Of a stretch of DNA of 64,000 bases, positions 21,037-34,069 are shown one piece after another. Both the position numbers and the translations under genes were made by a program. Under the pieces are notes generated by a model, which saw only the letters and a list, made by a program, of their open reading frames with translations, was not told where the DNA came from and did no database searches. The DNA comes from Flavobacterium sp. SUN046 (lineage in GTDB: Bacteria; Bacteroidota; Bacteroidia; Flavobacteriales; Flavobacteriaceae): NCBI RefSeq assembly GCF_028867965.1, contig NZ_JAPQNT010000007.1:124001-188000 (forward strand), read 5' to 3'. How positions within the stretch are numbered: position 1 is the first letter of the stretch; every line of letters starts with the position of its first letter.

Positions 21037-21076
21037 AAAAAGAATGGCTGAATAATTTATTCAGCCATTCTTTTTA
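21036..21076. terminator. Bidirectional terminator overlapping the fnr-like stop codon
   Basis: AGAATGGCTGAATAA (21041-21055) is perfectly complementary to 21057-21071, flanked by A and T runs. It serves the permease on plus and the Crp/Fnr gene on minus. The minus-strand arm contains the last codons of the Crp/Fnr gene (R-M-A-E-stop). Confidence 0.88.
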
Positions 21077-21737
21077 ATTTATTTCGGTCAATGAGTGCTA
21101 TTTTTTTTCCAATCAAATCGATTAAACCGCTTTTTTTTAATTCGGATAATAATCTAATGCAACTTTCGGTAGCTGTTCCAATCATTCCAGCAAGTTCTTC
21201 ACGAGACAATTGAATGTGAAGTGTACCGTCATCATTTTTACCGAAAGTAGCTTCCAAATATAAAAGTGTTTCTGCTAATCGTTCTTTAACACTTTTTTGA
21301 GCCATCGAAACCATGTGATCGTCTGCATCTTTTAAATCTCCGCAAATGGTTTTCATGACGTTCATCGAAAACTGATTGTTCTCATTGAAGAATCCCATTA
21401 TTTCACTTTTCGGAATAAAACATACTTCCATGTCTTCAAGAGCTACAGCACTTAAATTCGTTAGTTCGTCACTTATCATGGAGCGTTGTCCCAGTAATTC
21501 GCCTGGTTTTAACAATTTCACAATTTGGTCTTTTCCGTTGGCACTCAATTTTGAAAGTTTGCATACTCCATCTTTTATACAAAAAATGCCATTAACGCTT
21601 TCTCCTTCTTCAAAGATAGGTTCGCCTTTTTTTATAGTGTAAGACGTTTTGCAATCTGCCATTCTCAAAAGTTCTTCTTTATTCAAGGCTTTCAAAGAAC
21701 TAAATTGTCTAACTATGCATTGTTCACATTTGCCCAT
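21057..21737 (-). CDS. Crp/Fnr-family transcriptional regulator of the cbb3 region
   Basis: A 226-residue Crp/Fnr protein: cyclic-nucleotide-type beta-roll at about 25-125, a long dimer helix at 120-150 and a winged helix-turn-helix at 165-225 (QLSREELAGMIGTATESCIRLLSELKKSG). Compared with E. coli FNR from memory, C4, C7 and C106 align with cluster ligands C20, C23 and C122, but the C29 position is S13. In the recognition helix E191 and R195 are kept while FNR S212 is I194. It lies divergent to ccoI next to a palindromic operator, so it probably controls the cbb3 genes and itself in response to oxygen. Confidence 0.88.
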   Translation of the reverse strand: MGKCEQCIVRQFSSLKALNKEELLRMADCKTSYTIKKGEPIFEEGESVNGIFCIKDGVCKLSKLSANGKDQIVKLLKPGELLGQRSMISDELTNLSAVALEDMEVCFIPKSEIMGFFNENNQFSMNVMKTICGDLKDADDHMVSMAQKSVKERLAETLLYLEATFGKNDDGTLHIQLSREELAGMIGTATESCIRLLSELKKSGLIDLIGKKIALIDRNKLKRMAE

Positions 21738-21761: not shown

Positions 21762-21769
21762 CAAAGGTA
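21762..21769 (-). promoter_or_regulatory. -7 promoter element of the Crp/Fnr gene
   Basis: TACCTTTG on the minus strand matches TAnnTTTG, 24 bases upstream of the ATG. The palindrome at 21779-21792 lies just upstream, within the -10 to -33 spacer zone of this promoter, a position suited to repression. Confidence 0.55.
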
Positions 21770-21778
21770 TCAAATAGT

Positions 21779-21822
21779 ATGACAATTATCATATTTTAAA
21801 TTTAAGATTTGTTCAACCTTTG
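21779..21822 (+). promoter_or_regulatory. FNR-like operator plus -7 element, ccoI promoter
   Basis: Palindrome ATGAC-AATT-ATCAT at 21779-21792 (one mismatch from ATGAT-N4-ATCAT), then 22 bases, then AACCTTTG at 21815-21822 (one mismatch from TAnnTTTG). Palindrome centre to the last G is 36.5 bases, identical to the ccoS and hemN promoters. This places the box near -40, the classical activator position. Confidence 0.75.
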
Positions 21823-21846
21823 TTGTAGGTATAATTGAGCAAATTT

Positions 21847-24222
21847 ATGGACACAACAAATTGTTTCCATTGTGGTAATGAAATCATAAAAAAAGAAGAA
21901 ATTCTATTTGAAGACAAAAGTTTCTGTTGTAACGGTTGCAAAACAGTTTACGAAATTTTCAGCGTCAATGATATGTCTTGTTATTATGATTTTCAGTCAT
22001 CTCCGGGTGCAACTCCACTGGATATTAAAGGAAAATATGACTTTTTAGTCAATGAAAACATTGTAACAAAACTTCTGGAATTCCAAGAGGATTCAACACA
22101 TATTGTTTCTCTTTACATTCCGCATATACACTGTAGTTCGTGTATTTGGATTTTGGAAAATTTACAAAAACTTCAAGCGGGAATAAACACTTCTCAAGTA
22201 AATTTTCCTGAAAAGAAAGTCAGAATTACATACAATCCCGAAAAAACTTCTCTTAAACAAATTGTGGAACTACTTTGTTCCATTGGTTACGAGCCCTACA
22301 TCAGTTTAGATAATTTTGATGAAGGCAAAAAACCAGTCGATAGAAGTTTGGTTTACAAATTAGGAGTAGCCTTTTTCTGTTTCGGAAATATCATGTTGCT
22401 TTCGTTTCCCGAATATTTTGAAGTCAACGAATTTTGGATCAACCAATACCGCGGATTTTTGCGTTGGTTGATTTTTGCCATTTCATTGCCTTCGTTTTTA
22501 TATTCAGCAAGTGGTTACTATGTTGCAGCATGGAGAAGTATTAAAGCTAAAATGTTGAATATTGAAATTCCGATTGCATTAGGAATTATCGTGATGTTTG
22601 TTAGAAGCACCGTCGATATCATTTTTGACTACGGACAAGGCTTTTTCGACAGCATGTGCGGCTTGATTTTCTTCATGTTATTAGGAAAATTATTTCAACA
22701 AAAGACTTACAGTTTCTTATCGTTTGAACGTGATTACAAATCCTATTTTCCTATTGCAATTACAAAGATTTTATCCGATGGAAGTGAAATTCCGATACAG
22801 GTTTATGACATTGTAAAAGGCGATCGATTGTTAATTAGAAACCAAGAATTAATTCCAGTTGATGGAATTTTAATTTCAAATAAAGCTTCAATAGATTACA
22901 GTTTTGTTACAGGAGAAGCCGTTCCAATTGAAAAAAAATCAGGTGATAAAATTTTTGCTGGCGGAAAACAACTCGGAAAAGTTATCGAAATGGAAGTCTT
23001 GTTTTCGGTTTCAAACAGCTATCTAACCCAACTTTGGAGCAATGATGTGTTTCAGAAAAAAGTTGATATCAAACACAAAACCATCACCGATAAAATCAGT
23101 CGTTATTTTACACCTGCTTTGTTAGGATTGGCTTTAGTTTCTTTTTTATACTGGATTTTCATAAGTGTTGATACTGCTTTTAATGTTTTTACTGCGATAC
23201 TTATTGTGGCTTGTCCGTGTGCTTTAGCATTGACCGCACCATTCACCCAAGGCAACATATTGCGCATCATGGGAAATCGGAAACTATATCTTAAAAATGC
23301 GACCGTAATTGAGCAAATGGCAAAAGTAGATACAATTGTTTTTGATAAAACAGGAACAATTACTACCAATAAAAAAACGGCTATAACTTATGAAGGTGAA
23401 CCATTAAACGATTCTGAATTACTATTATTATTTAATACTTTAAGAGGTTCAAACCATCCTTTAAGTAGAAGATTGTATGATTTTATTCCAAATCAAGAAA
23501 AAAAAGAGCCTTTAAATTTTGAAGAAATAATTGGTAAAGGAATTTATGCAAAATTTGAATTTGGAACAATAAAACTAGGTTCTTCACAATTTTTGCAACA
23601 CATGAGTGAAAATACGCATAAGAAAACCAAAGTTCATGTTGAGATAAATGGAATTTACAAAGGAAGCTATATTTTCAACAATCAGTATAGAGAAGGTTTG
23701 GAAGTACTGTTTGAAAAACTATCTAAAACCTATAATCTAGTGGTGCTTTCTGGTGATAATGATGGCGAGCGACCTATTCTTGAAAAAATGGTACCTCATG
23801 CAACCACTTTAGTATTCAATCAAACACCCGAACAGAAATTAGATTATATTGAAAACCTTCAAAAGCAAGGCAAAAACGTAATGATGGTAGGTGACGGACT
23901 GAATGATGCTGGTGCTTTAGCACAAAGCAACATCGGAATTTCAATTTCTGAAAACGTAAATGTCTTTTCACCAGCTTGTGACGGAATATTAGATGCGTCA
24001 CAATTTCAGAAGATTGCTTTTTTCATGCGCTATTCTAAAGATGCCATGAACACTATTTTCATGAGTTTTACACTTTCATTATTATATAATATAGTTGGTT
24101 TGAGCTTTGCCGTTTCTGGAAATTTGCTTCCAATTGTAGCGGCAATCATAATGCCTTTGAGCACCATAACTATTGTGAGTTTTGTGACTGTAATGAGCAC
24201 TATTTATGCAACAAAGAAATAG
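21847..24222 (+). CDS. ccoI: cbb3 oxidase maturation copper P-type ATPase CcoI
   Basis: Heavy-metal P1B ATPase of the CcoI/FixI group, which supplies copper for cbb3 oxidase assembly. Start at ATG 21847 (MDTTNCFHCGNEI). The N-terminus has a cysteine-rich metal-binding domain (CFHCG and FCCNGCK), then a heavy-metal-associated domain with H95-C96-S-S-C99. The membrane metal site C456-P-C458, phosphorylation D500-KTGT and hinge GD683GLNDA are intact; the TGE actuator motif is VTGEAVPIE. About eight membrane helices. First gene of the cbb3 block under the FNR-like operator at 21779. Confidence 0.95.
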   Translation: MDTTNCFHCGNEIIKKEEILFEDKSFCCNGCKTVYEIFSVNDMSCYYDFQSSPGATPLDIKGKYDFLVNENIVTKLLEFQEDSTHIVSLYIPHIHCSSCIWILENLQKLQAGINTSQVNFPEKKVRITYNPEKTSLKQIVELLCSIGYEPYISLDNFDEGKKPVDRSLVYKLGVAFFCFGNIMLLSFPEYFEVNEFWINQYRGFLRWLIFAISLPSFLYSASGYYVAAWRSIKAKMLNIEIPIALGIIVMFVRSTVDIIFDYGQGFFDSMCGLIFFMLLGKLFQQKTYSFLSFERDYKSYFPIAITKILSDGSEIPIQVYDIVKGDRLLIRNQELIPVDGILISNKASIDYSFVTGEAVPIEKKSGDKIFAGGKQLGKVIEMEVLFSVSNSYLTQLWSNDVFQKKVDIKHKTITDKISRYFTPALLGLALVSFLYWIFISVDTAFNVFTAILIVACPCALALTAPFTQGNILRIMGNRKLYLKNATVIEQMAKVDTIVFDKTGTITTNKKTAITYEGEPLNDSELLLLFNTLRGSNHPLSRRLYDFIPNQEKKEPLNFEEIIGKGIYAKFEFGTIKLGSSQFLQHMSENTHKKTKVHVEINGIYKGSYIFNNQYREGLEVLFEKLSKTYNLVVLSGDNDGERPILEKMVPHATTLVFNQTPEQKLDYIENLQKQGKNVMMVGDGLNDAGALAQSNIGISISENVNVFSPACDGILDASQFQKIAFFMRYSKDAMNTIFMSFTLSLLYNIVGLSFAVSGNLLPIVAAIIMPLSTITIVSFVTVMSTIYATKK

Positions 24223-24266
24223 AAATATGTAACTTTTAAAAAGATTTTTCAATTCAAAATTCAAGT

Positions 24267-24310
24267 ATGATAAATATCATATTTTATCAAAAGTAGCAGC
24301 AGTAACTTTG
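24267..24310 (+). promoter_or_regulatory. FNR-like operator plus -7 element, ccoS-ccoNOQP promoter
   Basis: Palindrome ATGAT-AAAT-ATCAT at 24267-24280, then 22 bases, then a perfect TAACTTTG at 24303-24310. The geometry is identical to the ccoI and hemN promoters. No separate -33 TTTG is seen, suggesting an activator-dependent promoter. Confidence 0.8.
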
Positions 24311-24327
24311 TTAACACAAATTAAGGT

Positions 24328-24522
24328 ATGAGTGTCATTTATTTATTAATCTCCATCAGTATAGTGGTTGCCGTTGCATTTTTATACGCTTTTATAAGAG
24401 CGGTTAAAAGCGGGCAGTACGACGACGATTATACTCCATCCGTCAGAATGCTTTTTGACGATGAATTAATAACAAAACCCAAAACAATTACAAACAAAAA
24501 AGAAGAACAAAAACCAATTTAA
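24328..24522 (+). CDS. ccoS: cbb3-type oxidase assembly protein CcoS
   Basis: A 64-residue protein with one N-terminal transmembrane helix (VIYLLISISIVVAVAFLYAFIRAV), followed by the conserved GQYDDDYTPSVRMLFDD, which matches the CcoS signature (GQFdDlE-type, then a D-rich motif). It is needed for insertion of heme b and CuB in the catalytic subunit. The ATG is 2 bases upstream-adjacent in the same transcript as ccoNO (gap of 2 bases between genes). Confidence 0.93.
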   Translation: MSVIYLLISISIVVAVAFLYAFIRAVKSGQYDDDYTPSVRMLFDDELITKPKTITNKKEEQKPI

Positions 24523-24524
24523 TT

Positions 24525-26705
24525 ATGGAAATGCAACAATTTTATTACGACAACAAAATTGTAAAGAAATTTCTCTACGCCAGTATCGTTTTCGGTGTAG
24601 TAGGGATGCTAGTTGGGCTTATTTTAGCCGTACTGTTTCTTTTCCCAAACTTAACTCACGGAGTATCGTTTTTAAGTTTCGGACGATTGAGACCTTTACA
24701 TACCAATGCAGTTATTTTTGCTTTTGTAGGTAACGCCATGTTTGCTGGAATTTACTATTCATTACAACGTTTATTGAAAGCAAGATTATTCAGTGATTTT
24801 TTAAGTAATCTTCACTTTTGGGGATGGCAATTAATCATTGTTGCTGCGGCTATTTCGTTGCCTTTAGGATATACAAGTTCTAAAGAATATGCCGAATTAG
24901 AATGGCCAATTGATATTGCTATTGCTTTAATTTGGGTAGTATTTGGTATCAACATGATTGGAACTATCTTAAAAAGAAGAGAACGCCATCTTTATGTAGC
25001 CATTTGGTTTTATATAGCCACATTCGTTACAGTTGCTGTGCTTCATATTTTTAATAGTTTGGAATTACCTGTATCAGCAATGAAATCATATTCTGTTTAT
25101 GCAGGAGTTCAAGATGCTCTAGTACAATGGTGGTACGGACACAATGCCGTTGCATTTTTCCTTACAACGCCTTTCCTCGGATTGATGTATTACTTCGTTC
25201 CAAAAGCAGCTAATCGTCCGGTATATTCTTATAGACTATCCATTATTCACTTTTGGTCGTTAATCTTCTTATACATTTGGGCTGGACCTCATCATTTGTT
25301 GTATTCTGCGCTTCCAGAATGGGCACAAAATCTTGGTGTTGTTTTCTCAATTATGTTGATTGCACCCTCTTGGGGTGGTATGATTAATGGATTGTTAACA
25401 CTTCGTGGTGTTTGGGATAAAGTAAGAGAAGAGCCTGTATTGAAATTCTTCGTTGTAGCTATTACAGGTTATGGAATGGCAACATTTGAAGGACCAATGT
25501 TATCTCTTAAAAATGTAAATGCTATTGCGCACTTTACCGATTGGATTATTGCTCACGTTCACGTTGGCGCTTTAGCTTGGAACGGATTTATGTGTTTTGG
25601 TATTATTTATTGGGTAATTCCTAGAATGACTAAAACGCAATTGTTCTCTAAAAAACTAGCCAATTTCCATTTCTGGATTGGTACTTTAGGGATTATTATG
25701 TACGCACTTCCAATGTATGTTGCTGGATTTACTCAAGCTTCTATGTGGAAACAATTCAAACCAGACGGAACATTACAATATGGTAACTTTCTTGAAACAG
25801 TAACTCAAATTATGCCAATGTATTGGATGAGAGCTATTGGCGGAACTTTATACTTAACAGGAATTCTTGTATTAGTTTACAATATTATTAAAACAGTAAA
25901 ACAAGGTTCACCTGTTGAAGATGAATTAGCAGAAGCACCAGCTTTGCAAAAAATAACAGCAGGTAGATTAAAAGGTGAAAAATGGCACGGTTGGTTAGAA
26001 AGAAGACCAATTCAATTGACATTATTGGCTACAGTTGCTATTTTAATTGGCGGTATTATTCAAATTGTACCAACCATTATGGTGAAATCCAATATTCCAA
26101 CTATTGCCTCAGTAAAACCTTATACACCACTTGAATTAGAAGGTCGTGATTTATACATTCGGGAAGGTTGTGTGGGATGTCACTCTCAAATGATTCGCCC
26201 GTTTCGTTCCGAAGTAGCTCGTTATGGAGATTATTCTAAAGCGGGTGAATTTGTTTATGACCATCCATTCTTATGGGGTTCTAAACGAACTGGTCCCGAT
26301 TTGCAACGAGAAGGTGGAAAATACAATGACAACTGGCATTTCAACCACATGTGGGATCCAAGAAGTACTTCGCCAGGTTCAATTATGCCAGCCTATACTT
26401 GGTTGTATGATAACAAAGCGATGGATTATTCTTTGACACAAACCAAAATGCAAGCAATGCGAACTTTAGGAGTTCCTTATACCGATGCTGACATTGCCAA
26501 TGCTAAAACCGCTGTTCAAACACAAGCTGCTTCTATTGAGAAAAACTTAACAAACGATCCAGATTTTGTAAAATCGTATGAAGACAGCAAGAAAAAAGCA
26601 GCAGCTAAAGGTGAAGCTTTCGTGCAAATGAAAGATAGAGAAATTGTAGCCATGATTGCTTATTTGCAAAGATTGGGAACCGATATTAAAGTAAAAAAAC
26701 ACTAG
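24525..26705 (+). CDS. ccoN: Fused cbb3 cytochrome c oxidase subunits I and II (CcoNO)
   Basis: A 726-residue fusion. Residues ~1-465 are CcoN: about 12 helices with HTNAVIFAFVGN, CuB-region WWYGHNAVAF and GPHHLLY, and AHVHVGALAWNG (heme ligands). After a basic linker (GRLKGEKWHGWLERRP) and a membrane anchor at about 500, residues ~530-726 are CcoO with one heme c site C549-V-G-C552-H553 followed by SQMIRPFRSE, the standard CcoO motif. It reduces oxygen to water with proton pumping at low oxygen. The N-O fusion is usual in Bacteroidota. Confidence 0.96.
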   Translation: MEMQQFYYDNKIVKKFLYASIVFGVVGMLVGLILAVLFLFPNLTHGVSFLSFGRLRPLHTNAVIFAFVGNAMFAGIYYSLQRLLKARLFSDFLSNLHFWGWQLIIVAAAISLPLGYTSSKEYAELEWPIDIAIALIWVVFGINMIGTILKRRERHLYVAIWFYIATFVTVAVLHIFNSLELPVSAMKSYSVYAGVQDALVQWWYGHNAVAFFLTTPFLGLMYYFVPKAANRPVYSYRLSIIHFWSLIFLYIWAGPHHLLYSALPEWAQNLGVVFSIMLIAPSWGGMINGLLTLRGVWDKVREEPVLKFFVVAITGYGMATFEGPMLSLKNVNAIAHFTDWIIAHVHVGALAWNGFMCFGIIYWVIPRMTKTQLFSKKLANFHFWIGTLGIIMYALPMYVAGFTQASMWKQFKPDGTLQYGNFLETVTQIMPMYWMRAIGGTLYLTGILVLVYNIIKTVKQGSPVEDELAEAPALQKITAGRLKGEKWHGWLERRPIQLTLLATVAILIGGIIQIVPTIMVKSNIPTIASVKPYTPLELEGRDLYIREGCVGCHSQMIRPFRSEVARYGDYSKAGEFVYDHPFLWGSKRTGPDLQREGGKYNDNWHFNHMWDPRSTSPGSIMPAYTWLYDNKAMDYSLTQTKMQAMRTLGVPYTDADIANAKTAVQTQAASIEKNLTNDPDFVKSYEDSKKKAAAKGEAFVQMKDREIVAMIAYLQRLGTDIKVKKH

Positions 26706-26707
26706 TT

Positions 26708-26872
26708 ATGTTAAAGTTTGTACAACAAAGTATGGAGACAATAGATGGTGTAGCTATTTATCCAATTATATCATTGCTAATCTGTTTCAGTTTTTTTGTA
26801 GGTCTTTTTGTTTGGGTTTTTTCCTATAACAAAGACAAAATCAAAGAATTAAGCGAGTTACCAATAAAATAA
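26708..26872 (+). CDS. ccoQ: Small cbb3 subunit CcoQ-like protein
   Basis: A 54-residue ORF (MLKFVQQSMETIDGVAIYP...) between ccoNO and ccoP, starting 2 bases after the ccoNO stop. It has one hydrophobic helix (IISLLICFSFFVGLFVWVF) and a basic C-terminal tail (SYNKDKIKELSELPIK), the exact layout of CcoQ/FixQ, which stabilises the oxidase complex. Size, position and topology support the call; sequence conservation in this family is weak. Confidence 0.82.
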   Translation: MLKFVQQSMETIDGVAIYPIISLLICFSFFVGLFVWVFSYNKDKIKELSELPIK

Positions 26873-26895
26873 TAATCATCATAAAGATTCATGAT

Positions 26896-27819
26896 ATGAA
26901 AAAATTAATTCCATCATACGTAAGAGTTCCATTGATATTTGCCATAGTATTTGGTGCAATGGAATATTTTATCGATTCAGGCAATCAACCTGTATTTATT
27001 AAGTATCCAATGGTATTGTTGTTTCTTGGAGTATTTTTATTCCTCTTAGTGGCAATAGAAATAGTTGTTAGCGCAGTAGACACAGTTACCTATCATTTGT
27101 TAACAGAAGAACAGAAAAAACAATTGGACGAAGCACAATCATTGCCGTTTACAGAAAGTGAATTCTATCAAAACATTATAAAAAAACTGACTCGTTCCAA
27201 TAAAATCGAACAAGAAGCAGATATAATGTTAGAACACAACTACGATGGCATTAGAGAATTGGATAATGTGTTGCCGCCATGGTGGGTGTATTTATTTTAT
27301 GGTTGCATCATTTTTGCAGGAATCTATTTGGTTCGCTATGAAATTTTAGGTGCTGATAATCAAGTTCAAGAATTTGATAAAGAAGTAGCGGAAGCTAAAA
27401 TTGCAGTTGACGAATACAACAAAACTGCTCCAGACATGATGAATAAAGAAAAAGTAACCTTGCTTACTGATGCTACGAATATTGCTGCTGGTAAAACAAT
27501 CTTTATGAAAAATTGTATTCCATGCCACAGACCTGATGCTGGTGGACAAATTGGACCCAACTTAACAGACGATATGTGGATTAATGGTGGTGGAATTAAA
27601 AATGTATTCAACACTATTATGGAAGGCGGTCGTGACGGAAAAGGAATGGTATCTTGGAAAGCTACTATCAAACCATCAGATATTCAAAAAGTGGCTAGTT
27701 ATGTTCTTTCTCTTCAAGGTTCTAAACCGGTTAATCCAAAACCAACCGAACCAGAAGCTAAACAATGGGTAGAGGAAGCTACTACAAAAGTTGCTTCTAA
27801 AGTAGTTGCAACAAAATAA
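26896..27819 (+). CDS. ccoP: cbb3 oxidase diheme-type subunit III CcoP, single-heme form
   Basis: A 307-residue protein with two N-terminal hydrophobic segments (about 10-25 and 38-60), the CcoP N-terminal stretch YDGIRELDNVLPPWWVYLFY at about 115-135, and a periplasmic cytochrome c domain. Only one heme site is visible, C207-I-P-C210-H211, with an axial Met probably in GKGMVSWKA near 250. Proteobacterial CcoP has two heme sites; a single site is usual in this phylum. It passes electrons from donor cytochromes to CcoO. Confidence 0.94.
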   Translation: MKKLIPSYVRVPLIFAIVFGAMEYFIDSGNQPVFIKYPMVLLFLGVFLFLLVAIEIVVSAVDTVTYHLLTEEQKKQLDEAQSLPFTESEFYQNIIKKLTRSNKIEQEADIMLEHNYDGIRELDNVLPPWWVYLFYGCIIFAGIYLVRYEILGADNQVQEFDKEVAEAKIAVDEYNKTAPDMMNKEKVTLLTDATNIAAGKTIFMKNCIPCHRPDAGGQIGPNLTDDMWINGGGIKNVFNTIMEGGRDGKGMVSWKATIKPSDIQKVASYVLSLQGSKPVNPKPTEPEAKQWVEEATTKVASKVVATK

Positions 27820-27828
27820 TAAATCTTT

Positions 27829-27861
27829 GCAAGTCTCGAATTAATTGGGACTTGCTGGTTT
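27829..27861 (+). terminator. Intercistronic hairpin between ccoP and ccoG
   Basis: GCAAGTCTC and GGGACTTGC pair over 9 positions (one T-G wobble) around a 9-base loop, followed by TGGTTTT. The T tract is short, so it may be a leaky terminator or an mRNA 3' end that lifts ccoNOQP over ccoGH. Confidence 0.55.
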
Positions 27862-27875
27862 TAAATTAAATTAAA

Positions 27876-29294
27876 ATGTCAAAATTACCCGATGAAGATT
27901 TTAGAGATAGTATAGGAACTATTGATAAACAAGGGAAAAGATCTTGGGTGTTTCCAAAAATGCCCAAAGGTAAATTGTATGAAAGAAGAAAATGGGTAAG
28001 TTATTTTCTATTGTTATTCTTATTATCTGCGCCATTCATTAAAATTAATGGAAATCAATTTTTACTTTTTAATGTTTTAGAACGTAAATTCAATATTTTT
28101 AGCTTTCCTTTTTGGCCACAAGATTTTCACATTTTTGTGATTATCATGATTATAGGTGTGGTTAGTTTGGCACTATTTACAGTAGCATTTGGTAGAATTT
28201 TTTGTGGTTGGTTTTGCCCTCAAACTATTTTTATGGAAATGGTTTTCCGTAGATTAGAATATTGGATTGAAGGCGATAGAGGTGCACAAATTCGTTTATC
28301 TAAACAAGAATGGGACGCAGAGAAAATCCGTAAACGAATTACCAAATGGTTTGTTTTTTATGTAGTTTCATTTCTAATTGCCAATGTTTTTTTAGCCTAT
28401 TTAATTGGAAGTGACGAATTAATAAAATTAATCACAGAAGGTCCAACACAAAATACAGGAACTTTAATTGCATTGATAATTTTTACTTATGTTTTCTATT
28501 TCATCTACATTTCGTTTAGAGAACAAGTTTGTATTATAGCTTGTCCTTATGGCAGAATGCAAGGTGTTTTACTAGATAATAAAACCATAAATGTTGCCTA
28601 CGATTATGTAAGAGGCGAAAAAGAAACGGGAAGAGCAAAATTCAATAAACAAGAAAATAGAGCCGCTTCTGGAAAAGGAGATTGTATTGATTGTAAACTT
28701 TGTGTGCATGTTTGTCCAACAGGTATTGACATCCGAAATGGAGTGCAACTGGAATGTGTAAACTGTACCGCTTGCATCGACGAATGTGATACTATAATGG
28801 AAAGTGTTGGTTTGCCTAAAGGATTAATCCGCTATGCAAGCGAAGACGAAATAGCCAAAAAAGAAAAATTTGTTTTCACAGCTAGAATGAAAGGTTACGC
28901 TTCGGTATTATTAATTTTAACTGGCGTTTTCATCGGAATGTTATTTTTAAGAAACGATGTTGAAGCAACAATTTTAAGATTACCAGGACAATTATTCCAA
29001 CACAAAGGTGATAATATCAGTAACATTTACACCTTTAAAGTGGTAAACAAAACCGAAGCAGATTTTAATAATGTTTACTTCAAATTAGTGTCACCCAAAG
29101 GAACTATTAAGCTAGTAAGTAACGATCATTTTGTAGTTAAAAAACAAGCTTTGACCGAAGGAACTTTATTTATTGAAATCAATCAAGCTTTGTTAGAAGG
29201 CGATAAAACCAACCTTCAAATTGAAGTATATAACGATAAATTGTTAATTGATACTGAAACAACAAATTTTTTAGGACCAAGAAGTTTTAACTAA
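27876..29294 (+). CDS. ccoG: cbb3 oxidase accessory iron-sulfur protein CcoG
   Basis: A 472-residue membrane protein of the CcoG/RdxA/FixG family, thought to act as a cupric reductase during copper delivery. After helices at about 35-55 and 75-100, FGRIFCGWFCPQTIFMEMVFRRLEYWIEG is a near-invariant family stretch. Two [4Fe-4S] ferredoxin motifs follow, CIDCKLCVHVCPTGIDIRNG and CVNCTACIDECD, then another helix and a periplasmic immunoglobulin-like C-terminal domain. Part of the cbb3 block. Confidence 0.95.
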   Translation: MSKLPDEDFRDSIGTIDKQGKRSWVFPKMPKGKLYERRKWVSYFLLLFLLSAPFIKINGNQFLLFNVLERKFNIFSFPFWPQDFHIFVIIMIIGVVSLALFTVAFGRIFCGWFCPQTIFMEMVFRRLEYWIEGDRGAQIRLSKQEWDAEKIRKRITKWFVFYVVSFLIANVFLAYLIGSDELIKLITEGPTQNTGTLIALIIFTYVFYFIYISFREQVCIIACPYGRMQGVLLDNKTINVAYDYVRGEKETGRAKFNKQENRAASGKGDCIDCKLCVHVCPTGIDIRNGVQLECVNCTACIDECDTIMESVGLPKGLIRYASEDEIAKKEKFVFTARMKGYASVLLILTGVFIGMLFLRNDVEATILRLPGQLFQHKGDNISNIYTFKVVNKTEADFNNVYFKLVSPKGTIKLVSNDHFVVKKQALTEGTLFIEINQALLEGDKTNLQIEVYNDKLLIDTETTNFLGPRSFN

Positions 29295-29306
29295 ATTACA
29301 GAAATT

Positions 29307-29759
29307 ATGAAAATTAATTGGGGAACAGGAATAGTAATCGCGTTTGCACTTTTTATGAGTTTTATTTTATTCTTTATAATTAAAGTTCAAACCAACAGCC
29401 AATACGACAACGAATTTGTTGTAACGGAATATTACAAAAAAGAATTGCTAGCACAACAAGATTTGAATAAAGAGCAAAATGCCTATGATTTAAGCAATAA
29501 AGTTGTTGTAAAAGCAGTAGCAGAAGGAATCACAGTTGATTTTCCATCCGATTTTGATTGCAAAAATATTAAAGGAATAGTGTCCCTTTATAGACCGTCC
29601 AACCAGAAATTAGATTTTGAAATTCCGATTTCATTATCTAATCCACATTTGCTCATACCTAAAAGTAACTTGGTTGGCGGTCGTTGGGGCATTAATATTG
29701 ATTGGAATTATCAAGGTAAAAAATACCTAAACAAAGAAGAAGTTTATTTTAAACAGTAA
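29307..29759 (+). CDS. ccoH: cbb3 oxidase assembly protein CcoH (FixH family)
   Basis: A 150-residue protein with a single N-terminal transmembrane helix (WGTGIVIAFALFMSFILFFI) and a periplasmic FixH domain. The conserved region TEYYKKELLAQQDLNKEQNAY, then the C-terminal GGRWGINIDWNYQGKKY, match the family. It lies 12 bases after ccoG and 8 before the TauE/SafE gene. CcoH is required for stable assembly of the cbb3 complex, possibly by holding CcoP and CcoN assembly intermediates. Confidence 0.92.
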   Translation: MKINWGTGIVIAFALFMSFILFFIIKVQTNSQYDNEFVVTEYYKKELLAQQDLNKEQNAYDLSNKVVVKAVAEGITVDFPSDFDCKNIKGIVSLYRPSNQKLDFEIPISLSNPHLLIPKSNLVGGRWGINIDWNYQGKKYLNKEEVYFKQ

Positions 29760-29767
29760 CTACTACC

Positions 29768-30469
29768 ATGCTTTATTCCGCTTTTATATTCGGGTTGATT
29801 AGTAGTTTGCACTGCATCGGAATGTGCGGACCTATTGCTATGATGTTGCCTGTAGATAGGAGCAATCCTGCCAAAAAAGTGATTCAGATTATGATCTATC
29901 ATTTTGGTAGATTGTCGGCTTATGCGTCACTTGGTTTGGTTTTTGGTATTTTAGGAAGAGGATTTTATATGGCAGGAATTCAACAACAACTTTCAATTGC
30001 GGTAGGCGTGATGATGATTGTTATTGCGGTCGTTCCTGAAAAAGTGTTTATGAAATACAACTTTTCTAAACCCGTTTATAAAGCCATTTCAAAAGTAAAA
30101 AGCAGTTTAGGAAGTCAGTTCAAACGAAAAACTCCTGATGCTTTTTTTACCATTGGATTGTTGAACGGATTGCTACCTTGCGGATTGGTGTATGCCGCTT
30201 TGTTTGGTGCTATTGCCATGCAAAATATGACATTAAGCATAACTTATATGTTGCTTTACGGATTAGGAACCATTCCGATGATGAGCGCTGTGGTTTATAT
30301 TTCCAATTTATTGTCGATACCAATCAGAAGTAAATTACAAAAAATTATACCTGTTGTAGCTGTTTTTATTGGCATTCTTTTTATAATTCGCGGGTTGGGA
30401 ATGGGCATTCCGTATCTATCTCCGGGTGCTATAAGTTTGTTTGTTAAAGCTAATGCGAGTTGTCATTAA
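29768..30469 (+). CDS. TauE/SafE-like (UreH/CcdA-type) membrane protein of the cbb3 block
   Basis: A 233-residue protein with about six transmembrane segments in two halves. Each half has a paired motif: SSLHCIGMCGPIAMMLPV near 11-28 (C-x3-C) and LLNGLLPCGLVYAAL near 134-148 (PCG). This is the UreH-like subgroup of TauE/SafE/DsbD-type proteins often placed at the end of cbb3 clusters, and suspected of roles in metal handling or cytochrome/copper redox chemistry. The cysteines could be redox or copper ligands. Its stop is 4 bases from the convergent hemN stop. Confidence 0.85.
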   Translation: MLYSAFIFGLISSLHCIGMCGPIAMMLPVDRSNPAKKVIQIMIYHFGRLSAYASLGLVFGILGRGFYMAGIQQQLSIAVGVMMIVIAVVPEKVFMKYNFSKPVYKAISKVKSSLGSQFKRKTPDAFFTIGLLNGLLPCGLVYAALFGAIAMQNMTLSITYMLLYGLGTIPMMSAVVYISNLLSIPIRSKLQKIIPVVAVFIGILFIIRGLGMGIPYLSPGAISLFVKANASCH

Positions 30470-30473
30470 TAAT

Positions 30474-31838
30474 TTAAACTGTCATAGAAAATAATTCTGT
30501 TTCTGGTGCATTACGTTTTAAACGCAAGTCAAAAGCCATACATAAATTGCGTACGAATGCCTTACCTTTTACAGTAACTTTTATTTTTTTACTTGAAATT
30601 TCTATAATACCATCAATTTCCATTTCATGTAGTTGGTTTATAATACCTGGTAATTCTTTAAAAAATTGATTGTCATTTTCCCAAGAAGTTTCAAATTTAC
30701 ACATCAAATTCAGAATGTGTTTTCGGATAATTAAATCCTCATCGGTTAATACATGCCCGCGAAAAATTGGTATTTCGTTATTATCCAAGCGTGAATAATA
30801 CGCTTCAATAGTTTTTTCATTTTGAGCAAAACTATACCAACTATCACTTATTGAAGAAACTCCTAATCCAATCATTAATTGCGTTTTAGATGAAGTATAT
30901 CCCATAAAATTACGGTGTAACTTTCCGTCTTTAAAGGATTCATACATACTATCACTTTCTAATGCAAAATGATCCATTCCAATTTCGTGATAATTATTAG
31001 CAGCTAAACGTTTTTTTCCTACTTCATAGAGCAGTCGTTTTTCATCATCTTTGGGTACATCTTCACCATTAAATCCACGTTGACCATTACCTTTAATCCA
31101 AGGAACATGTGCGTAACTATAAAATGCTAATCTATCCGGTTGCAATGAATTGGTTTTGTCTATAGTGTCAATAACATCATCAAGTGTTTGAAATGGTAAT
31201 CCGAAAATTAAATCATGCCCAACCGATGTGTAACCAATTTCTTTTGCCCAAAAAGTCACTTTTGCTACATTGTGAAAGGGTTGGATTCTATGAATTGCTA
31301 TTTGTACTTTTTCTGAATAATCTTGAACGCCAAAACTCACTCGCCTAAATCCTATATCATAAAGCGATTGTAAATGTTTTCGAGTGGTGTTATTCGGATG
31401 ACCTTCAAAACTGAATTCGTGTTCTTTTGCTTTGTCGGCTCGTTTAAAAATTCCATTAATTAAAGTTTCTAAATTTTCTATCGAAAAGAAAGTAGGAGTA
31501 CCGCCACCTAAATGAATTTCTTTTATTATTGGTTTTTGTGGAAATAAATCACAATATAAATTCCATTCTTTTAAAACTGCAAGAATATAAGGATTCTCAA
31601 CATCATGACGCTTTGTAATTCGTTTATTACAACCACAAAAAGTGCATAAACTTTCGCAAAATGGCAAATGTATGTACAAACTAATTCCTTCAGATTTATT
31701 ACTTTCAAAAAATGATTTTATAAATGTATCATTCCATTTTTTTGTTGTGAATAAATCTTCTTCCCAAAAAGGAACAGTAGGATAGCTGGTGTATCTCGGA
31801 CCAGGAACATTATATTTTTGTGTTAATGAAAGCGACAT
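30474..31838 (-). CDS. hemN: Oxygen-independent coproporphyrinogen III oxidase
   Basis: Radical SAM enzyme that decarboxylates coproporphyrinogen III without oxygen, for heme synthesis under low oxygen. The 454-residue length matches true HemN. The cluster motif is C61-x3-C65-x2-C68 in FCESLCTFCGC, followed by EIHLGGGTPTFF (SAM-binding GGGTP) and RVSFGVQDY. N-terminal NVPGPRYTSYPT and a C-terminal HemN domain are present. It converges on the cbb3 block and has the same operator-promoter layout, so co-regulation with the heme-rich oxidase is expected. Confidence 0.96.
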   Translation of the reverse strand: MSLSLTQKYNVPGPRYTSYPTVPFWEEDLFTTKKWNDTFIKSFFESNKSEGISLYIHLPFCESLCTFCGCNKRITKRHDVENPYILAVLKEWNLYCDLFPQKPIIKEIHLGGGTPTFFSIENLETLINGIFKRADKAKEHEFSFEGHPNNTTRKHLQSLYDIGFRRVSFGVQDYSEKVQIAIHRIQPFHNVAKVTFWAKEIGYTSVGHDLIFGLPFQTLDDVIDTIDKTNSLQPDRLAFYSYAHVPWIKGNGQRGFNGEDVPKDDEKRLLYEVGKKRLAANNYHEIGMDHFALESDSMYESFKDGKLHRNFMGYTSSKTQLMIGLGVSSISDSWYSFAQNEKTIEAYYSRLDNNEIPIFRGHVLTDEDLIIRKHILNLMCKFETSWENDNQFFKELPGIINQLHEMEIDGIIEISSKKIKVTVKGKAFVRNLCMAFDLRLKRNAPETELFSMTV

Positions 31839-31858
31839 GATAATAGTACTTTAAGTAC

Positions 31859-31902
31859 CAAAAGTAACTTACGATGTTTAAAAAAAAAATGATAATTATC
31901 AT
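31859..31902 (-). promoter_or_regulatory. FNR-like operator plus -7 element, hemN promoter
   Basis: Perfect palindrome ATGATAATTATCAT at 31889-31902, then 22 bases, then TACTTTTG (minus strand, 31859-31866), a perfect TAnnTTTG. Same 36.5-base centre-to-G distance as at ccoI and ccoS. The start codon lies 21 bases downstream. Confidence 0.82.
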
Positions 31903-31907
31903 ATAAG

Positions 31908-31938
31908 AAAAAAGCTCACCGTTAAAGTGAGCTTTTTT
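31908..31938 (-). terminator. Rho-independent terminator of the DUF349 gene
   Basis: AAAAAAGCTCAC-cgttaaa-GTGAGCTTTTTT, a perfect stem with T tract on either strand. On the minus strand it directly follows the DUF349 gene and insulates the hemN promoter. Confidence 0.88.
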
Positions 31939-31939
31939 G

Positions 31940-34069
31940 TTATTTATTTAAATTTCGTATTTGTTTTAACTTGTCTTTCCAAGTAACTAAATCTTCTTTA
32001 TGTCTTTCGATAGTTTTTCTAACTTCGGTTACAATTGAATTTTCTTTCTTAGCATTTTTAGTGTTTTGGAAAAATTGAATGTTGTTTTCTAACTGAAAAA
32101 TCTCATTCTGAACTTCATCAATTTTACGCATGATAAAGATTTTTTCGTTATCTAATTTTCTGCTGTCTTCTGAACCAGCCAAATTGTCTAACCTATTAGC
32201 GAAACGCATTTGTTCACCTTCTTTTTTGCTAGAACTTAGTTTTTCAAACAAGGCATCCAGAATTTTATTGAATTTTCCTTCAATATGCCTTCTATTAAAT
32301 GGAACTTTACCAATTGCTTTCCAAGCTTCAATGTGCACTTTTATTGCATCTAAATCGGTTTTATGATCACCAACTAACTCAAAAGAACGTAATCCTTCTA
32401 AATATTCTTTTTTCTTTTCAAATGCTTCTACTTCTTCGGCATTTTCTTCTTTTTTACTGTTTTTCAAACGCTCGAAATAATGATTGCAAGCAGCTTTGAA
32501 TTCTTTCCAAAGTTCGTCTGAAAATTTTCTAGGAACATGTCCGACTAATTTCCATTCTTCTTGAATTTGTTTCATTATTATAGTGGTAGCTGCAAAATCT
32601 TCGCTATCTTTTAATTCATTTGCTTTAGCTACAAGCGCTTGTTTTTTACTTAAATTATCGTTTTGATCTTTTTTAATTTCTTTATAGAATGAATTCTTTA
32701 AAATATTAAAATCTTTAACGGCATTTTTAAAAGTAGCCCAAGTTGCTTCGTTTACATCTCCAGGAACTTTACCTGTAGCAAAAAACTCATTGCGTAATGC
32801 TTCAACTTTAGTAATTTGATTTAACCAAGCTTGATGCGAATCAACTTTTTCTTGTGCTAATTCTTGTAATTTAGCGATGATACTATTTTTTTTCTCAAGA
32901 TTTTCAGTTTCTTTAGCTCTAAAACCTTCATAAAATGATTCACGTTTGTCGTGCATTTGTTTGGTTAATTCGCTAAATTGTTTCCAAAGTTCTTCACGAT
33001 GTTCTCTTGAAACCGGGCCAATATCTTCTTTCCAGATTTTGTGTAAATCTTGCAATTCACGAAATGATTTATTAATGTCTGATTCATTTACTAATTCAGC
33101 AACACGCGCAATTATTTTTTGCTTTAGTTCTAAATTATGTTTGAATTCAATATCTCTAGCTTCACGATCTAAATGTAAAAAGTCATAGAAGTTTTCAATG
33201 TGAAAATGATAATTATTCCAAACATGATTGTATTTGTCTTTTGGAATCGGACCAGCATTATTCCAACGGTCTCTAATATCGTTCAGTTGTTTAAGAGAAT
33301 TTGCTATGTTTCCGTTAGAATTACTTACCAAATTTTTTAATTCTTCAACAATCGCCATTCGGTTTTCTAAATTCGCTTTTAAGTTATTTTGAAGCGATTT
33401 AAAATGTATATTTTTCTTATCTCTATATTGATTGTATAAAGAATCGAATTTTGTTTTTAATGGAAAATGATAATGAAAATCTTCTAGTGTATCAGTATTT
33501 TCAGCATGAAATTCATCTTTTTTCTCATCCATAAAATGATGATATTTAGATAAAAATGCTTTTTTAACTTCTTCAACATGTTCTTTAACAGACATTAGTT
33601 GTTCTACTGCAACTAGTTTTTCTAGTTCGTCAACCAATTGATCCATTGGTAATGCTTCATAATCTTGCATCGGAATGTCATGACGGCCTTTTATAGTTTC
33701 GTCTTCACTTTCTTCTGCATTTGCATTTGCAATAGCATTCATAGCAAAATCACTTTCTTCTTCAATAACCATTGAATCATCTGCTACTTGAGCATCAGTA
33801 AGTGTTATTTCATTGCTATTTTCTTTAGTAACTGTAGTAACTTCTGAAACTTCTTCGCCTACTAAATCTTCAATTTCGGCACTTGCTTCAATTGGAGTTA
33901 TTGGAGCTTCTACTTCAGTATCAGGAACTAAATCATTTGAAGAATCAGTAGCAATATCTAACTCAACTTCTTGATTTTCAGTTTGATTTGCTTCTAGCGA
34001 TTCATTATTTACGTTTCCATCTGTCGCGTTTTCGTTAACTGACAGGTTATCATTCAATTCTTCTGACAT
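31940..34069 (-). CDS. DUF349-domain coiled-coil protein
   Basis: A 709-residue protein. Residues 1-~130 are an acidic, low-complexity, probably disordered region rich in Glu, Asp and Asn. From about 140 onward come several repeats of the DUF349 unit, each a helical hairpin with a W..IG.V/GP.P(K/R)....LW..F core (for example IWKEDIGPVSREHREELW and EWKLVGHVPRKFSDELW). Charged and Lys/Glu-rich throughout with coiled-coil potential. Function is not established; no signal peptide or membrane segment. Monocistronic with a strong terminator. Confidence 0.88.
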   Translation of the reverse strand: MSEELNDNLSVNENATDGNVNNESLEANQTENQEVELDIATDSSNDLVPDTEVEAPITPIEASAEIEDLVGEEVSEVTTVTKENSNEITLTDAQVADDSMVIEEESDFAMNAIANANAEESEDETIKGRHDIPMQDYEALPMDQLVDELEKLVAVEQLMSVKEHVEEVKKAFLSKYHHFMDEKKDEFHAENTDTLEDFHYHFPLKTKFDSLYNQYRDKKNIHFKSLQNNLKANLENRMAIVEELKNLVSNSNGNIANSLKQLNDIRDRWNNAGPIPKDKYNHVWNNYHFHIENFYDFLHLDREARDIEFKHNLELKQKIIARVAELVNESDINKSFRELQDLHKIWKEDIGPVSREHREELWKQFSELTKQMHDKRESFYEGFRAKETENLEKKNSIIAKLQELAQEKVDSHQAWLNQITKVEALRNEFFATGKVPGDVNEATWATFKNAVKDFNILKNSFYKEIKKDQNDNLSKKQALVAKANELKDSEDFAATTIIMKQIQEEWKLVGHVPRKFSDELWKEFKAACNHYFERLKNSKKEENAEEVEAFEKKKEYLEGLRSFELVGDHKTDLDAIKVHIEAWKAIGKVPFNRRHIEGKFNKILDALFEKLSSSKKEGEQMRFANRLDNLAGSEDSRKLDNEKIFIMRKIDEVQNEIFQLENNIQFFQNTKNAKKENSIVTEVRKTIERHKEDLVTWKDKLKQIRNLNK

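Follow-up and report, generated by a model that had tools for sequence, protein, structure and literature searches.

FNR of Escherichia coli acts at class II promoters from a TTGAT-N4-ATCAA site centered at -41.5 and represses its own gene. CRP and FNR share this class II position in E. coli; at such promoters the activator overlaps the upstream element and contacts sigma region 4 or the alpha domains. The base contacts of FNR are made by the recognition helix E209-x-x-S212-R213, and its oxygen-labile [4Fe–4S] iron–sulfur (Fe–S) cluster is held by the cysteines C20-x2-C23-x5-C29 and C122. In Proteobacteria, FixK, FnrL, and ANR regulate the cco (fix) operons. To our knowledge, the promoters of Bacteroidota are not recognized by E. 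coli polymerase. In this study, we analyzed a stretch of 64,000 nucleotides from Flavobacterium sp. SUN046 (assembly GCF_028867965.1, contig NZ_JAPQNT010000007.1, positions 124,001 to 188,000; hereafter the window), in which an earlier note, made from the sequence, had seen one operator palindrome, ATGAT-N4-ATCAT, at a fixed distance from the promoter boxes of ccoI, ccoS, and hemN, the genes for cbb3 oxidase and oxygen-independent heme synthesis. We find that this arrangement is conserved across the genus and that its occurrence follows that of the Crp/Fnr-family regulator encoded beside ccoI. In the open-access literature, as covered by titles, the openings of abstracts, and selected passages, we found no defined activator register for Bacteroidota promoters, no named oxygen regulator of a Bacteroidota cbb3 oxidase, and no name for this operator.

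Operators and promoter boxes

Direct reading bore out the three palindromes base for base. The operator between the regulator gene and ccoI, ATGACAATTATCAT (21779-21792, plus strand), has one mismatch to the palindrome, while those of the ccoS operon, ATGATAAATATCAT (24267-24280, plus strand), and of hemN, ATGATAATTATCAT (31889-31902, minus strand), are perfect. Downstream of each lies a -7 box of the TAnnTTTG type, namely AACCTTTG for ccoI (21815-21822, plus strand), which departs from the consensus at its first base, TAACTTTG for ccoS (24303-24310, plus strand), and TACTTTTG for hemN (31866-31859, minus strand). The gap of 22 bases between palindrome and box (N22) and the distance of 36.5 bases from operator center to the G of the box, both given in the earlier note, proved identical at all three promoters. 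By itself, the palindrome shows only a mild excess in the window (13 matches with one mismatch or none, against a shuffle mean of 6.6 with a standard deviation of 2.5, 1 of 100 shuffles reaching 13), so that the weight of evidence lies in palindrome, spacing, and box together. Sigma-70-type promoters were also considered and rejected, with 55 matches against 48.7 in shuffles.

Within the 3,373,788-base genome, the exact palindrome–box pattern with spacers of 18 to 26 has two matches, both in the window, and the reversed-pattern control has none. At up to two mismatches and N22, there are 18 matches genome-wide against 4 in the control, a list that is largely noise and from which only the sites of ccoI, ccoS, and hemN and one further site (C5:251) were taken further. 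It follows that the ccoI site, with two mismatches in all, is not significant by itself in its own genome; it gains significance through conservation, an exact WTGAYN4RTCAW operator being present in 77 of 78 ccoI loci. A set of 31 genomes, 19 from the genus and 12 from other families in the order, holds 102 matches to WTGAYN4RTCAW-N22-TAnnTTTG against 0 in the control, and for ATGAYN4RTCAT-N22-TAnnTTTG there are 634 against 2 in 199 Flavobacterium genomes. Chance palindromes were rejected as an explanation on the reversed-pattern controls of all three sets. The earlier note had named, as an outcome that would speak against it, a motif common upstream of unrelated genes. With only two exact matches, the window's own genome is clear of this; in the genus, the matches track the regulator (see below), and the question is answered in part, 5 of the 10 downstream proteins scanned being concerned with redox or nitrogen oxides.

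The orthologous promoters came from a set of 80 relatives, among which ccoI was matched in 78 and ccoS in 71, with usable upstream DNA for 77 and 68, respectively (78 and 69 with the window); for these counts the operator was sought 40 to 150 bases upstream of the start. In all 69 ccoS loci, an exact WTGAYN4RTCAW operator is joined by a TAnnTTTG box at N22, with no box at any other spacer from 8 to 39. At hemN, TAnnTTTG stands at N22 in 27 of 27 loci, with 23 exact operators and 4 of one deviation. At ccoI, NAnnTTTG is present at N22 in 71 of 78 loci and the full TAnnTTTG in 2 of 78 only; the ccoI box is thus systematically weak at its first base across the relatives. A scan of 250 upstream bases found a better-scoring palindrome elsewhere at two ccoS loci (L064 and L070), and at L088 the match taken for the ccoI operator, which has one deviation and lies in an odd place, is probably due to chance. 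Of the genus matches to the exact palindrome at spacers of 12 to 32, 150 of a larger total were listed; 100 of these have a spacer of 22 and 23 a spacer of 23, the others accounting for at most 7 each. Nearly all of the ccoI, ccoS, and hemN promoters read ATGAY-N4-RTCAT, the half-site being ATGAY rather than the ATGAT of the earlier note.

Published data place the box relative to the transcription start. In Flavobacterium psychrophilum, the sigma-A box spans positions -12 to -5 (PMC9723704). With the G of the box at -5, a distance of 36.5 bases puts the operator center at -41.5, which sharpens the position "near -40" of the earlier note and supports its class II assignment. By its geometry, the predicted activator would be centered at -41.5 and overlap the upstream element, as in class II activation. 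The same study gives cbb3 oxidase as strongly induced under oxygen limitation and heme synthesis enzymes as also induced (PMC9723704), and in the F. psychrophilum locus (L095), both the ccoI and the ccoS promoters have the operator at N22. In most ccoI and ccoS promoters, a T tract (ATTTT or GTTTT) stands directly after the operator. It takes the place of an expected -33 TTTG, which would fit activator-dependent promoters.

The ccoI operator also faces a second promoter. On the minus strand, a predicted -7 box of the regulator gene, TACCTTTG (21762-21769), begins 9 bases past the operator, the center of which is 23.5 bases from the G of this box (-28.5). In 72 of 80 loci, an exact TAnnTTTG stands at a distance of 8 or 9 bases; in the others the distance is 7, 10, or 13 bases, except for L088, which has no matching site. 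A box at 8 or 9 bases puts the operator center at -27.5 or -28.5, within the polymerase footprint, where the bound regulator should repress its own gene and at the same time activate ccoI. This arrangement suggests autorepression of the regulator via the ccoI operator.

The regulator and its cysteines

The gene adjoining the ccoI operator (21057-21737, minus strand) encodes a protein of 226 amino acids with a cNMP_binding domain (PF00027, 72.1 bits) and a Crp-type helix-turn-helix domain (PF13545, 64.7 bits), both above cut-off, and with a fold match to CRP and FNR, which places it in the Crp/Fnr superfamily. Its closest named relatives are mostly from Flavobacterium; its best match in the PDB is 2gau, and holo-FNR also matches. 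The gene is present (E ≤ 1e-60) in 177 of 199 Flavobacterium genomes, which have on average 3.47 sites, 6 of them having none. The other 22 genomes, in which G191 and G194 were counted as regulator-free by elimination, have on average 0.91 sites, 9 of them having none (Mann–Whitney p = 6e-10 vs. the regulator-carrying genomes), and the 14 regulator-free genomes that are at least 90% complete have 0.71. Of the 31 genomes, 27 have a true hemN, and the 4 without hemN are the 4 without the regulator.

The recognition helix keeps E191 and R195 of the FNR E-x3-R pattern and has I194, invariant in all 40 rows of an alignment (A1, which comprises the window, 11 close relatives, and 28 of the 30 best class loci), at the position of S212. 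This departure from the helix of FNR proper is in line with the changed outer base of the site, ATGAY for TTGAT, the sites reading ATGAY-N4-RTCAT where FNR proper has TTGAT-N4-ATCAA. Against NCBIfam models, the regulator scores 84.7 bits with the FNR model NF008365 (cut-off 228 bits) and 69.8 and 76.1 bits with the FixK/FnrL equivalogs NF050806 and NF045989 (300 bits). The protein would work like FNR and yet lies outside the FNR family as NCBIfam defines it. One other HTH_Crp_2 protein of the window's own genome scores above the family cut-off; it has a different recognition helix and no CxxC. It was considered as the operator binder and rejected because its helix differs.

Cysteines were compared in the best 30 class loci and in 40 more that were picked, 20 aligning from residues 3-7 and 20 mostly from later ones. 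The conserved set is C4, C7 (the CxxC of residues 4-7), C53, and C106, of which C4, C7, and C106 align with C20, C23, and C122 of FNR. The four-cysteine set of FNR proper is incomplete, its C29 corresponding to S13, and C53 may replace this third N-terminal cysteine. Paralogues with other patterns were also seen. In seven from the class (L258, L261, L264, L265, L287, L292, and L296), F or I stands for C53 and the N-terminal motif C-x2-C-x4-C supplies a third cysteine, as in FNR; they are a probable further Fe–S branch of Crp/Fnr proteins. Three others, L259 (G304), L260 (G225), and L262 (G268), have all four cysteines and the helix TNNYLYK or TKSYLYK instead of TESCIR, and probably read other DNA sites.

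Occurrence beyond the genus

A sample of 119 genomes of the class was searched with spacers of 12 to 32. One Flavobacterium row was dropped, and the 149 matches listed come from 29 genomes, 30 of them from G273 alone. Among these, a spacer of 22 is the most frequent (57), followed by 23 (17), 24 (13), and 21 (12), with no other above 7; 57 of 149 against an expected 1 in 21 gives p = 4e-36. The variable-spacer reversed-pattern control is not empty (3 vs. 7 in the window's own genome), and the argument for the class is the peak at 22. Of 65 genomes with ccoNO, 62 lie outside the genus; the 30 best of the 65 were used for ccoS and provided 27 non-genus loci. Of these 27, 6 have a recognizable operator and box, 3 exact and 3 with one deviation; all six have a spacer of 22, and none has another from 12 to 32. 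The register appears to be general for the protein family of the regulator within the class and its targets variable. This class-wide register, the ATGAY half-site, and the placing of an operator over the regulator's own promoter go beyond what the earlier note had claimed.

Further candidate targets and the remaining genes of the locus

A ferredoxin-NADP reductase-like gene (fpr, G000:C5:321; named from sequence and length) has a perfect operator and a one-mismatch box at N22 (G000:C5:251-294, L004). The operator is present within one deviation in 23 of 30 fpr loci, and in 21 of these the best box, with at most one mismatch, lies at 22 (3 perfect), a count that is weaker than the others since ties were broken toward 22 and one-mismatch boxes are common. 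The gene is thus a weaker candidate for a fourth target of the circuit. In the genus, N22 sites also lie upstream of nirK (TIGR02376), the Fe–S repair gene RIC (TIGR03652), a NarK-like transporter (below cut-off), OmpW, and c-type cytochromes. Ten downstream proteins that were picked comprise five of redox or nitrogen-oxide metabolism (nirK, RIC, NarK-like, and two cytochromes c), two outer-membrane barrels, one PAS protein, and two of no family; nirK was assigned by its family model for L106, and L115 and L121 are similar at the N terminus.

Promoters of the nirK type contain, within the 22-base spacer, an imperfect inverted repeat, AAARGAY-N6-GTCYTTT (L106:1501-1544 of G059; also in listed matches of G188, G164, G012, G032, G015, G042, G088, G051, G002, G004, G173, G017, and G052). 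Its exact arms are 9 to 11 bases long in 4 of the 14 sequences and 3 to 5 in the rest, compared with 2 to 6 in the 69 ccoS spacers, and the repeat is probably the site of a second regulator. Downstream of the N22 sites of L101 and L105 lie membrane-like proteins of 95 amino acids, and that of L101 has no match in Pfam or NCBIfam.

The identities of ccoI, ccoS, the fused ccoNO, ccoP, hemN, and the Crp/Fnr regulator are backed by Pfam and NCBIfam models. On the plus strand, ccoI, a copper-type P-ATPase (21847-24222; PF00122, PF12156, and PF00403), is followed by ccoS (24328-24522; TIGR00847, above cut-off), the ccoNO fusion (24525-26705; NF011053, 1353 bits), a 54-amino-acid open reading frame named ccoQ by position only (26708-26872), ccoP (26896-27819; PF14715 and PF13442), ccoG (27876-29294; TIGR02745, above cut-off), ccoH (FixH; 29307-29759; PF05751), and a gene for a DsbD_2-family membrane protein (29768-30469; PF13386). 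The gene hemN, for oxygen-independent coproporphyrinogen III oxidase (30474-31838; TIGR00538, above cut-off), is on the minus strand. Between its operator and the minus-strand gene at 31940-34069 lies a terminator-like hairpin of 12 pairs (31908-31938), listed on the plus strand only; terminator-like matches in the region show no excess (7 vs. 6.2 in shuffles).

Discussion

The sites, their spacing and conservation, their co-occurrence with the regulator, and the cysteine pattern of that protein were established directly. From them we infer binding, the direction of regulation, the oxygen signal, and the Fe–S cluster, and we consider it probable that the locus contains an FNR-like class II circuit in which the protein of 21057-21737 binds the three operators at low oxygen, activates ccoI, the ccoS operon, and hemN, represses its own gene, and senses through an Fe–S cluster. 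In this circuit, the three palindromes, with the half-site ATGAY, would be the sites of the Crp/Fnr-family protein, and at low oxygen its dimer at -41.5 would activate the housekeeping RNA polymerase at TAnnTTTG promoters by class II activation, switching on ccoI, the ccoS-NO-(Q)-P-G-H operon, and hemN jointly. The ccoI operator would lie over the core of the divergent regulator promoter (center -28.5), so that the bound regulator would limit its own synthesis, and the low-oxygen signal would probably be read by an Fe–S cluster on C4, C7, C53, and C106.

Several points weigh against this circuit. The case in this organism is drawn entirely from its DNA, and the counts among relatives are not independent events, descent being shared. 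The ccoI box misses the first base of the consensus in nearly all relatives, and a recognizable site was found at only 6 of the 27 non-genus ccoS promoters examined. The 22 regulator-free genomes still carry 20 matches, so some sites must be those of other regulators or due to chance. Carbon sensing has been predicted for Flavobacteriales homologues of Crp/Fnr, which may be other paralogues (PMC8510549). In F. psychrophilum, iron scarcity also induces the hypoxia genes (PMC9723704); for an activator that depends on a cluster, this would not be expected unless a further input is at work.

The last two points favor an alternative in which the same regulator binds and activates the sites in response to another signal, such as carbon, iron, nitric oxide, or redox state, as in the MalR/BT4338 group. 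The N22 targets in the genus, which include nirK and a nitric oxide-linked Fe–S repair gene, also speak for it. However, CxxC, C53, and C106 are conserved, cbb3 oxidase and oxygen-independent heme synthesis form the core of the targets, and the BT4338 consensus (PMC11501099) is unlike ATGAYN4RTCAT. We therefore regard a signal other than oxygen as unlikely. It is considerably less probable still that another Crp/Fnr-type protein binds the operators and that the neighboring regulator is incidental. Other N22 promoters of the genus belong to denitrification genes, a group often served by regulators of its own, and some genomes keep one to four sites without the regulator gene; against this, the sole other HTH_Crp_2 protein above cut-off in the genome has a helix without the E...R pattern, and sites per genome drop from 3.47 to 0.91 where the regulator is missing. 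That the operators act as repressor sites, or are A+T-rich palindromes arisen by chance, with a coincidental spacing is hardly credible, for although the excess of the palindrome by itself in the window is only mild, a spacer of 22 is found in 100 of 150 genus and 57 of 149 class matches among those listed for spacers of 12 to 32, and the reversed-pattern control gave 2 matches against 634.

Beyond the FNR-like circuit itself, it is quite possible, though we put it forward tentatively, that these regulators form a Bacteroidota branch of FNR-like proteins in which an Fe–S ligand has moved from the N-terminal loop (C29) to a strand of the sensor barrel (C53), with ATGAY half-sites, a class-wide -41.5 register to TAnnTTTG, and one operator that activates ccoI and shuts the regulator's promoter. 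If the swapped cysteines hold a cluster, this would be a second way of building an FNR-type oxygen sensor. Now that the site and its spacing rule are defined and a candidate protein and its putative targets are listed, both an activator register for Bacteroidota promoters and an oxygen regulator of their cbb3 oxidase become directly testable.

Comparison with known systems

Among Bacteroidota, MalR/BT4338 of Bacteroides thetaiotaomicron is comparable, for this activator of the Crp family has, at fusA2, a putative site that precedes a putative -7 box (PMC6989115 and PMC11501099). It differs in its signal, carbon limitation, and in its consensus, TATGTTnTAnAACATA (wwwTATGTTnTAnAACATAwww; PMC11501099), which the three sites, compared by eye, do not fit. 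The structure 2gau is that of a Crp/Fnr protein of Porphyromonas gingivalis, the entry title of which gives neither function nor DNA site. With FixK, FnrL, and ANR, the circuit shares a Crp/Fnr protein that would drive ccoNOP-type operons and hemN, whereas the fused ccoNO, the divergence of ccoI from the regulator gene, the Bacteroidota promoter, and scores below the FnrL/FixK cut-offs set it apart. It is closest to FNR (E. coli and Aliivibrio fischeri), with the Crp fold, the N-terminal CxxC, the C122 equivalent, a palindrome with a four-base center, an operator center at -41.5, hemN and a low-oxygen oxidase as targets, and a probably autorepressed gene of its own; unlike FNR, it has the half-site ATGAY, I194 for S212, a conserved C53 and no cysteine at the C29 position, a TAnnTTTG box with a T tract, and a score far below the NCBIfam FNR cut-off. 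Taken together, the circuit would be FNR-like and adapted to Bacteroidota promoters, with variants of the half-site and of the cysteine set and an operator overlap that probably serves autorepression.

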